Shown here: positions 15,651 to 58,797 of the stretch, piece after piece
Position numbering within the stretch: the stretch's first letter is position 1
Layout of the letters: every line of letters starts with the position of its first letter
Source of the DNA: Vulcanimicrobiota bacterium
GTDB lineage: Bacteria; Vulcanimicrobiota; JAJTBE01
Assembly (NCBI GenBank): GCA_021107945.1
Contig: JAIORV010000075.1
Span: 1 to 64,000 of the forward strand
Reading direction: 5' to 3'
DNA length: 64,000 bases
Program-made: the position numbers and the translations under genes
The notes under the pieces: model-generated
What the model saw: the letters and a program-made list of their open reading frames with translations, nothing else
Told to the model about the DNA's origin: nothing
Database searches by the model: none

Positions 15651-16541
15651 TTATTTCAGCCTGAATTTGTAAATTAAATCCAATTGATTTTCGGGAACAA
15701 TATCCCTTATGTTCTCTTCAAGCTTCTTCTTTGTGCTTCCACTTGCTACCACTGTTTCATATAGTATAGCAAAATGCCCCCTCATATCCTCTTCTTTTAA
15801 TGCTTTCTTGATTTTTCTGGCATGGATTTTTCCCATTGTCTGATAAAACAGCACAAATAAACCATGGCTTTTCGAGCCAAGCTCCTCAATCTCTTCCCAA
15901 AAGAAGTCGCGGTTCTCCCTTGTACTGAGGTAATATTCAAGCATCCTCTCATCCTTTGATTCCGCACCTTTTCCGTCAAATGGAAGAGAGGTTATTATCC
16001 CATATTTCGCCTTTGCCATTTTGTATGTGTCGTCAAGATCCCTTTTTATTCCTCCTCCCATTACTACCCTATAGAGACAAACAAGACCATCCCATATTAT
16101 TTTGTCTTTATAAGGAAGAATCGCGGTTTCCACTACAGCGGGTAAATCCAAAAAGAATTTCTCCTGGATAAGATCAATGATTTCATTGTTGAGTCCAAGT
16201 ACCCCGTATGCCTTGCAATCTTTTTCCTGGCTCAGCAATATGGTATGTTTTTTCAGGTCGCGATATACGACAAATTTCCCGAGTATCATATGCTTCCAGC
16301 TTTTAACAATTTCAAGGTCTTTACCGGCAATTCCATAAGGATTTGTTTCAATGAATTCATCAAGGAAATGTTTGTTTTGGGCAAAAAAATCTCTTGCTTC
16401 CGTCATCGCTGACACAATAAGCTCGGGGCTGTCCTTTAAACTTAATATATCCGGTATATTTTCATTCTTTGTACTTATATAATTTAGAAAAAGTTCATAG
16501 AGAGAAATAAATTTGTTCACATCATTCTCTTTTAATATCAT
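15651..16541 (-). CDS. hypothetical protein
   Basis: 296-aa ORF with compositional bias matching neighbouring genes; no family recognised. Confidence 0.5.
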   Translation of the reverse strand: MILKENDVNKFISLYELFLNYISTKNENIPDILSLKDSPELIVSAMTEARDFFAQNKHFLDEFIETNPYGIAGKDLEIVKSWKHMILGKFVVYRDLKKHTILLSQEKDCKAYGVLGLNNEIIDLIQEKFFLDLPAVVETAILPYKDKIIWDGLVCLYRVVMGGGIKRDLDDTYKMAKAKYGIITSLPFDGKGAESKDERMLEYYLSTRENRDFFWEEIEELGSKSHGLFVLFYQTMGKIHARKIKKALKEEDMRGHFAILYETVVASGSTKKKLEENIRDIVPENQLDLIYKFRLK

Positions 16542-16560
16542 AATAGAATCTCCATAATAT

Positions 16561-16643
16561 ATAGAATACTGATTCTCACATTAAACATTGAAAGGGTTTT
16601 GACCTTCAAGACGTAATAACTTCCATTACATTGCATTCTTATT
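16561..16643. repeat. left copy of ~80-bp direct repeat flanking the HEPN/MNT module
   Basis: Matches 17502-17584 at offset 941 with a 33-nt identical core ATTAAACATTGAAAGGGTTTTGACCTTCAAGAC. Confidence 0.9.
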
Positions 16644-17037
16644 CGTATATTATTCCTTCCGCCCAGTTTAATACGGTTTCGGCAATATTGACAGCTTGTT
16701 CGTATTCGTCTTTCGTAACAGGTTCGAAGACTCCAGGATAGCGGGTTTCAACTGCATAATAAGTTAATTCCGCTGAAACCCTGACACTATCAGGAACATC
16801 TATTCCATTGCTCTCCAGTGAAATAATTAATTCTCCCAGGTCATGGACATATCGGAACTCTATCCCAAAATGAATAAATATTGCCTTGATTGCCTTCTCA
16901 GCAGCTTGCTGAGCATCAAAACAAAAATCCTCAAAATATGAGCCTTCAGGCTTTTCTGCTTTTGCACGTAGAAGATTACCTCTGGCTCGCTTTAACCATT
17001 GTTCAGCGGTACCTGGAACGGGCAGGTCAGGCTGCAT
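16639..17037 (-). CDS. HEPN domain protein
   Basis: DFCFDAQQAAEKAIKAIFIHFG...HDLGEL...ETRYPG HEPN-family pattern; start may be 17037 (MQPDL) or 17061; overlaps MNT gene. Confidence 0.85.
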   Translation of the reverse strand: MQPDLPVPGTAEQWLKRARGNLLRAKAEKPEGSYFEDFCFDAQQAAEKAIKAIFIHFGIEFRYVHDLGELIISLESNGIDVPDSVRVSAELTYYAVETRYPGVFEPVTKDEYEQAVNIAETVLNWAEGIIYE

Positions 17038-17347
17038 GATATACCTCTCTCCCTTCTTCAAGCGCAGATTTAATGACCAGTCCTATAGAATTACGATATT
17101 TTATTGTATCTGTTTGCGTGACAACAACAATATCCTTTGCAAAGCCAAAACCCGGAAGATTGCGATAAAGAAGTTGAGCGGTCTTTCGTCTATGTGTTCC
17201 ATCGGGCATAATTATAAGGAGATCTATATCACTGTTTCTTTTCATAGTGCCACGGGCAGCAGAACCGAAAAGAACAATGCGAATTGGATGAACAAATTCA
17301 ACGATTTTTTGAACTATTTCCTCTAATTTTTTGTCATCTAGCTTCAT
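17027..17347 (-). CDS. nucleotidyltransferase (MNT) domain protein
   Basis: LFGSAARGTMKRNSDIDLLI = GSX10DXD; ORF extends to 17416 but the ATG at 17347 (MKLDDKKLEEIV) looks likelier. Confidence 0.87.
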   Translation of the reverse strand: MKLDDKKLEEIVQKIVEFVHPIRIVLFGSAARGTMKRNSDIDLLIIMPDGTHRRKTAQLLYRNLPGFGFAKDIVVVTQTDTIKYRNSIGLVIKSALEEGREVYHAA

Positions 17348-17501
17348 TGGCAGAAGCTCCTTTTTTAATCTGGCATAATCCCACAGACCGGGGAGCTTCA
17401 AGAGCAAGAATGACACAACAATTGAATCAATTATCAGCCGCCCGATTCAGTCCGTAAAAATGCATAACTTGTTTCGGAATGACGTTTGCGTAAGTCCAAA
17501 T

Positions 17502-17584
17502 TTATAATACCGACTCTCATATTAAACATTGAAAGGGTTTTGACCTTCAAGACATAATAACTTCCATAACATTGAATTCTAATC
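17502..17584. repeat. right copy of ~80-bp direct repeat flanking the HEPN/MNT module
   Basis: See 16561-16643; 33-nt identical core at 17521-17553. Confidence 0.9.
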
Positions 17585-17603: not shown

Positions 17604-18989
17604 TTGCAATTATCGAAAAACGGGGGGAATACTATTATTAATAAATATTTATTCAGAATTCTTCCGGTATTTCTATTGTTATTAGTGTTTTTATCAGTTT
17701 CTTGCTTGTCTTATGCAAAAACGATCGAGCCAGATAAACCGGAAAATGAAAAAACACTGAAAAGATACGAGATAAAAGAGGCCAAAGACAATTATAGAAA
17801 AGCGGTCAGACTCATCAAAAACCGTGATTACCATATGGCGGAGGGTTTTCTTTTAAAAACGATTGAGGCCGATGTTGATTTCGCCCCGGCATACATCGAA
17901 CTTGGAAATGTTTATTATCATCTGAACAGGTTCCCGGAAGCGGAGCGAAATCTGAATACGGCTCTAAAGATAAATGACAGGTTTGACAGGGCATACTATT
18001 TTCTCGCCCTTACCGATTTCAAACAACGCAGGCTCAAAACGGCAGAAAAGCATATTAAAAAGGCAATTAAAATCAATCCAAACAAGTCGGTCTATCATTA
18101 TCTCCTGGGTTCGATTCTGTCGGAAAATGGTAAATACCTCAAAGCAATTACAACGCTTAAGAATTCACTGGAGATTGACCCGGGAAACAACTCGGCAAGA
18201 GCCTCCCTCTCGCTTTGCTACTTGAACCTTGGAATGTTCAAGGATGCAGGCAGGGAGATAGAAACCGCATTGAAAGGAGACCCGGGATGCTATAACGCCC
18301 TTCTTGTGAAGGGAATTATACTTGCAAGATTGGGCAGGCAGGACACCGCATATTTATTTTTTCAAAAAGCCGCTCGCGTATCTCCTGATGAGCCTGAAAC
18401 ATATTACAATATGGCTCTTATTGACATCAAGAGAAAACAAAGAGGACAGGCTGAATATCATCTGCTTAAATCAATGGAGCTTGATAAATATAATACGAAA
18501 CCTTACATAGCTCTGGGGAGGCTTTATTCCTCCGAAAAACGTTTTGAGGATGCGCTAAGGTTGCTTGAAAAAGGGAAAAATCTGGATCCCGATAATTCCG
18601 AAGTATATCTTGAGATCGGTGTATTGAAGCTTTCCATGGGAAAGGTGGCTGACGCGGCGGCGTCCCTTGAAAAGGGTGTTCTTATTGATCCGGATAATGC
18701 CGTGATGAGAAACGCTCTGGGCTCCGCGTATAAAACCCTGGGTAAATACAAGGAAGCTCTTGAAGAATACAACAGGGCAGTTGCGCTTGATCCAAATCTT
18801 GCAATTGTCTATTATAATATGGGAAACCTTTTTGAGGAGCGAGGGATGATTCCGGAGGCGATAGAGAATTTCAGTAAGTATATCGAGGTCTATCCCGCCG
18901 AGAAAGATGCGGAAATAGTGAGAAAACGGATTGAGATTCTTGAAGAATCCAGAAAGTTAAAAAGAGCGGGATCATCCGATAAGAAATAA
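17604..18989 (+). CDS. exported TPR-repeat protein
   Basis: 461 aa; signal sequence and about ten TPR units (e.g. PDNAVMRNALGSAYKTLGKYKEALEEYNRAVALDP). Confidence 0.85.
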   Translation: MQLSKNGGNTIINKYLFRILPVFLLLLVFLSVSCLSYAKTIEPDKPENEKTLKRYEIKEAKDNYRKAVRLIKNRDYHMAEGFLLKTIEADVDFAPAYIELGNVYYHLNRFPEAERNLNTALKINDRFDRAYYFLALTDFKQRRLKTAEKHIKKAIKINPNKSVYHYLLGSILSENGKYLKAITTLKNSLEIDPGNNSARASLSLCYLNLGMFKDAGREIETALKGDPGCYNALLVKGIILARLGRQDTAYLFFQKAARVSPDEPETYYNMALIDIKRKQRGQAEYHLLKSMELDKYNTKPYIALGRLYSSEKRFEDALRLLEKGKNLDPDNSEVYLEIGVLKLSMGKVADAAASLEKGVLIDPDNAVMRNALGSAYKTLGKYKEALEEYNRAVALDPNLAIVYYNMGNLFEERGMIPEAIENFSKYIEVYPAEKDAEIVRKRIEILEESRKLKRAGSSDKK

Positions 18990-58290: not shown

Positions 58291-58708
58291 TCTGTAGGAG
58301 GGACGTCCCCGTCCCGATAAAATGAGAACGGAAGACAGATTTGTTTATTCACCGCAAAGACCACAGAGACCACAGAGGGTAATGCGGAGCGGAGGGCGGA
58401 ACTGTAGGAGGGACGTCCCCGTCCCGATAAAATGAGAACGGAAGACGGATTTGTTTTTCACAACAAAGACCACAGAGACCACAGAGGGTAATGCGGAGCG
58501 GAGGGCGGAACTGTAGGAGGGACGTCCCCGTCCCGATAAAATGAGAACGGAAGACGGATTTGTTTTTCACAACAAAGACCACAGAGACCACAGAGGGTAA
58601 TGCGGAGCGGAGGGCGGAACTGTAGGAGGGATGTCCCCATCCCGATAAAATGAGAACGGAAGACGGATTTGTTTATTCACCACGAAGCCACGGAGAACAC
58701 GAAGGAAA
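58291..58708. repeat. tandem array, four copies of a ~109-bp unit, each with a GTAGGA-class hairpin
   Basis: CTGTAGGAGGGAYGTCCCCRTCCCGATAAAATGAGAACGGAAGAC at 58292, 58402, 58511, 58620. Confidence 0.95.
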
Positions 58709-58797
58709 TGAATGATGACGGAGACCGGAGGACGGATTGCGGAGAACAGATCACGCTTCCCACTTCTCATCTCCCGACTCCGATTATACCGGTAGCA

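Follow-up and report, generated by a model that had tools for sequence, protein, structure and literature searches.

The window, which is the whole analysed stretch of 64,000 nucleotides from a Vulcanimicrobiota bacterium (contig JAIORV010000075.1), contains an MNT-HEPN gene pair located between two divergent neighbours and bracketed by the two copies of a direct repeat. The features of this locus are the following:

15651-16541, minus strand: left neighbour, 296 aa, no known family
16559-16642, plus strand: direct repeat, left copy, in the upstream region of the 15651-16541 gene, with the HEPN stop codon in its last bases
16588-16609, plus strand: imperfect palindrome TTGAAAGGGTTTTGACCTTCAA in the left repeat copy (sequence match)
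16639-17037, minus strand: HEPN gene, 132 aa (PF05168, E 2.4e-26, HEPN-T subtype)
17027-17344, minus strand: MNT nucleotidyltransferase gene, 105 aa (PF01909, E 6e-14)
17466-17499, minus strand: truncated end of a dispersed MITE (terminus about CAGGACTTACGCA, here TTGGACTTACGCA)
17500-17583, plus strand: direct repeat, right copy, in the upstream region of the TPR gene
17529-17550, plus strand: imperfect palindrome in the right repeat copy (sequence match)
17529-17558, towards the TPR gene: sigma-70-like match TTGAAA-18-CATAAT (10-of-12), in the right repeat copy
17604-18989, plus strand: right neighbour, TPR protein, 461 aa, start codon TTG

The MNT gene comes first and overlaps the HEPN gene by 11 nt, both Pfam matches exceed their cut-offs, and the MNT motif GSx10DxD is intact (GSAARGTMKRNSDID), in agreement with an earlier, sequence-only reading of this DNA, which had placed two overlapping minus-strand genes of these families between the repeats. 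This organization resembles that of the HepT-MntA type VII modules, which share the overlapping MNT-then-HEPN order, the intact MNT catalytic motif, a scattered multi-copy distribution and known insertions at syntenic sites (PMC2701414, PMC7641770); about 13 MNT-HEPN modules are spread across the contigs of the source genome. In contrast to the HepT-MntA equivalog, the HEPN protein of the window, a PF05168 (HEPN-T) member, is devoid of the RX4-6H motif, and the MNT protein reaches 30.8 bits against the NCBIfam MntA equivalog NF047752, below its cut-off of 60. HEPN members of the PF05168 class may lack RX4-6H, with D replacing H (PMC3710099, Table 1). Judged from its family, the module is most likely a type VII-like pair, in which MNT is predicted to control HEPN by nucleotidylation. 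Its G+C content matches that of the window (41% and 42%), which gives no compositional sign of recent import, and its GC3 of 25-32% is lower than the comparison figure of 38-43%. The HEPN stop codon (16639-16641) falls inside the left repeat copy, and the HEPN protein stops a few residues short of its two nearest paralogues. The left neighbour has one relative in the same phylum (38%, genome G003), which is not syntenic; a contig search with this gene returned no match, and one with RnfB returned only two matches, at 43%, both from Bacteroidota. No empty site was recovered among the genomes searched, all of which are related to the source genome more distantly than at the family level.

Geometry of the repeat and its junctions

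Pairwise comparison in the window aligns the two copies over 84 nt without gaps (89.3% identity, 9 differences, spacing 941), with a single longest identical run of 33 nt, which bears out the direct repeat of ~80 bp with a 33-nt core that the sequence-only reading had described at the same spacing. Allowing gaps lengthens the similar stretch slightly, by a few bases at either side. The copies thus differ by 11%, with changes flanking the 33-nt core on both sides. If 9 differences are placed at random in 84 positions, an identical run of this length is not significant (p = 0.085), which makes it weak evidence for a selected core, and selection on the core was set aside as not significant. The imperfect palindrome noticed earlier is present in both copies, and the chance expectation of its 22-nt core in the window is 0. 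Neither copy folds better as RNA than shuffled sequences (z between -1.2 and +0.5), and a stable RNA within the repeat was likewise rejected.

Each copy lies at the start of a neighbouring gene, as had been proposed: upstream of the 15651-16541 gene, the left copy begins at a distance of 18 nt, and a gap of 20 nt separates the end of the right copy from the TTG of the TPR gene. Deleting positions 16643-17583 would give the left gene, 84 bp and the TPR gene; with the module removed, the neighbours would be divergent genes ~120 bp apart, most of this gap being occupied by the 84-bp sequence, so that each of them retains one upstream copy for itself. No recombinase, transposase or integrase gene lies between the repeat copies, and no integrase beside them. 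At the right junction, the truncated MITE end (AACTTGTTTCGGAATGACGTTTGCGTAAGTCC) terminates at 17497-17499 and adjoins the right copy without a gap. This MITE end matches ~40 places in the genome, where complete copies of 270-490 bp, for instance L083 1258-1526 and L064 1121-1534, have termini near CAGGACTTACGC and AT-rich target duplications of ~6 bp, such as TTATAA, TAAAAC and TATATA, as read by eye. No autonomous partner of the MITE family was found, and the genome holds no short MITEs whose exact ends are 150-180 bp apart. The MITE terminus occurs at the right junction only, no transposon terminus being present at 16643 and no inverted repeats being paired across the segment.

Copy number against the genomic background

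The repeat occurs exactly twice in the genome (5.56 Mb, 215 contigs; E = 9e-26 for the second copy), the next-best match being a 21-nt chance match, and it is absent from the 148 other genomes of the phylum that were searched. It is thus not a common dispersed element, a possibility that the sequence-only reading had entertained, and membership in a dispersed family was rejected on these two copies. Its exact 22-nt core is absent from the viral contigs searched, and viral carriers of the core were dismissed accordingly.

Because the source genome is crowded with dispersed intergenic repeats, the background of such brackets was measured in an 864-kb genome sample. In this sample, ~13 brackets that are either non-coding or short have their copies 0.6-2.5 kb apart; all non-coding ones other than that of the window stem from repeat families with 7-83 copies in the sample, and the remaining low-copy brackets are coding repeats or paralogous genes. 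Similarly, 12 of 3000 random 856-bp segments carry repeats in their flanks that score 60 bits or more, and each of the 12 lies in coding repeats or paralogues. That the pair arises by chance, as an assembly artefact or as an ordinary dispersed repeat is very improbable even in a genome so rich in dispersed intergenic repeats, being refuted by the two copies in 5.56 Mb at E 9e-26, and a repeat whose copies differ at 9 places is no assembly echo. A very common intergenic repeat (CCACGGAGACACGAAGGACACGAAG...), with dozens of copies in the 864 kb, brackets single genes elsewhere (L090 15115-16260; L091 458-1394; L123 14601-15776). The window also carries, at 58292-58710, a tandem array with a period of ~109 bp whose unit is dispersed across the genome.

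Origin of the bracketed module

Among the mobile two-gene modules of prokaryotes, MNT-HEPN pairs rank with the most abundant, yet they carry no mobility gene, and we found no literature account of their entry into new sites; a private duplication of the target at such a module is a possible footprint of this entry. The repeat is private, non-coding and intergenic, and it brackets a family known to move, which makes insertion with duplication, the first half of the earlier proposal, the best reading. In Thermus thermophilus, an MNT-HEPN pair is present in the lysine operon of strain HB8 and absent from the syntenic site of HB27 (PMC2701414). We favour, with modest confidence, the view that a mobile MNT-HEPN module was captured long ago into a divergent upstream region, of which ~84 bp became duplicated. 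From the observed repeat, its private copy number, the gene content and the junctions, we infer the following order of events and mechanism. The pair would have entered the ~120-bp region that separated the 15651-16541 gene from the TPR gene, and ~84 bp of this target would have been duplicated during entry, leaving one copy on each side. Either neighbour would thereby retain its full upstream sequence, which would make the insertion tolerable. The inserted segment would extend from the HEPN 3' end, whose stop codon is now part of the target sequence, to the truncated MITE end upstream of MNT. Capture may have taken place during the repair of a staggered break, or through a tandem duplication with capture between the copies; the ragged, non-inverted ends of the segment fit either route better than a clean transposon. 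If such an event occurred, the 11% divergence between the copies indicates that it is old.

The same divergence is a point against a cassette with recent excision activity. The other half of the earlier proposal, a cassette that could be deleted or exchanged, gains no positive support: the longest stretch identical in both copies is 33 nt, the repeat accompanies no other cassette, and no recombinase or transposase lies inside. Recombination between the copies could in principle excise the module, which would leave a single, complete intergenic region. The arrangement recalls integron cassettes and their attC sites in that a short module lies between two similar palindrome-bearing repeats, but it has only two repeat copies, no integrase nearby and no attC boxes recognisable by eye.

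A point against the capture reading is that the repeat could predate the module. Both copies may be ancestral cis-elements, for example operators or promoters, or a tandem duplication may have come first and the module later and independently; we regard this as unlikely, albeit with an appreciable chance of being correct. Either copy immediately precedes the start of a neighbouring gene, the right one contains the 10-of-12 sigma-70-like match pointing towards the TPR gene, and an identical core between diverged edges is what such elements might display. However, the copies stand in opposite relative orientation to their two genes, the promoter-like match of the left copy on the same strand is weaker, and sigma-70-like matches are no more frequent around the repeat than expected by chance in the region. 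Moreover, the identical run lacks significance, as given above, and the element is found at no other gene in the genome.

A transposition of the IS1634 type, with a long and variable target duplication, would explain the MITE end as the surviving right end of an element whose left end was lost with the HEPN 3' tail. Direct repeats of 8-514 bp are reported for IS1549 and IS1634 (PMC2266710), so that long unique direct repeats are common to such insertions and to the window; IS1634-family transposases are present in this genome, the MITE terminus, which exactly adjoins the repeat, fits the C-----YT pattern of the family, and the MITE copies have AT-rich 6-bp target duplications. The window differs in that it has no transposase between the repeats and no left terminus at 16643. 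Furthermore, the two intact IS1634-family copies of this genome (G000:C109, that is L252, and C72, that is L253), 97% identical over 1850 bp, both carry the terminus CGGATSTTCCA and are devoid of long flanking repeats, and the C109 copy is flanked by a 6-bp target duplication, TTGCAA. The MITE end at the right junction likewise evokes a MITE insertion, but complete MITEs here show duplications of ~6 bp and not 84. An IS1634-type long duplication was rejected in view of the other termini and missing long repeats of the local copies, and, with the 6-bp duplication of the C109 copy, these leave IS1634 transposition as a minor and improbable rival.

A slightly smaller chance still is given to a circular DNA carrying the module and one 84-bp copy, integrated by a single crossover (Campbell type) or through the repeats acting as att sites. 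Direct repeats whose core is identical and whose arms are less similar do resemble att sites or a crossover scar, but no integrase gene lies between the copies, the homology continues for ~30 nt beyond the core in either direction, and neither the exact core in viral contigs nor the repeat in any other genome searched was recovered.

With capture and target duplication as the preferred reading, the bracketed module is most likely a mildly interesting scar and not a new system. The module itself is an ordinary MNT-HEPN member, and its slightly unusual part is the private 84-bp duplication.

Flanks of related modules across the phylum

The left and right flanks of 66 PF05168 modules from the source genome and other genomes of the phylum were compared, 64 of them being testable. 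Direct flank repeats of at least 39 bits occur at 5/64 modules, and inverted repeats at 0/64. Two brackets of the source genome were dropped, that of C111, which belongs to a multi-copy family (26 matches in the sample), and that of C156, which consists of two terminator-like hairpins (AAAAAGCCCTC...GAGGGCTTTTT). The modules left are that of the window and two from G005, whose genome belongs to a different family of the same phylum. In G005:C191 (L191 2020-2075, 2824-2862), an MNT-HEPN pair is bracketed by a private direct repeat of 37-50 nt with 80-86% identity (37 nt at 86%), the right copy of which is located 6 nt past the HEPN stop. In G005:C63 (L174 1486-1575, 2387-2469), the pair is bracketed by an 84-nt direct repeat of 85% identity, the first half being nearly private to the locus and the second half a dispersed repeat. 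As it stands, the tally is one clear scar, one weaker and one doubtful third.

As a control, 277 ordinary gene segments of like length were taken from the same two genomes; such repeats flank 4 of them, three being multi-copy intergenic repeats and one apparent coding repeats. The Fisher test of modules against controls yields p = 0.006 to 0.035, depending on the items counted, and this excess is a lead rather than a result, since the private-copy filter was chosen after seeing the data. The excess of bracketed modules over control genes is suggestive only. A general reading, which we consider quite unlikely, is that MNT-HEPN pairs without a recombinase spread as passive cassettes into intergenic control regions, duplicating 40-90 bp of target, and that the window, G005:C191 and perhaps G005:C63 are such scars. 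If so, neighbouring genes would keep their promoters thanks to the target duplication, and a phylum-wide excess that persisted in larger sets with empty sites would provide a testable entry mechanism. In a separate module, G000:C43 (L050 7111-7158, 8559-8606), the first ~48 nt of the MNT gene, start codon included, are found again 1448 bp upstream, on the far side of an inserted lipoprotein-like gene, and may be a split or remnant MNT copy.
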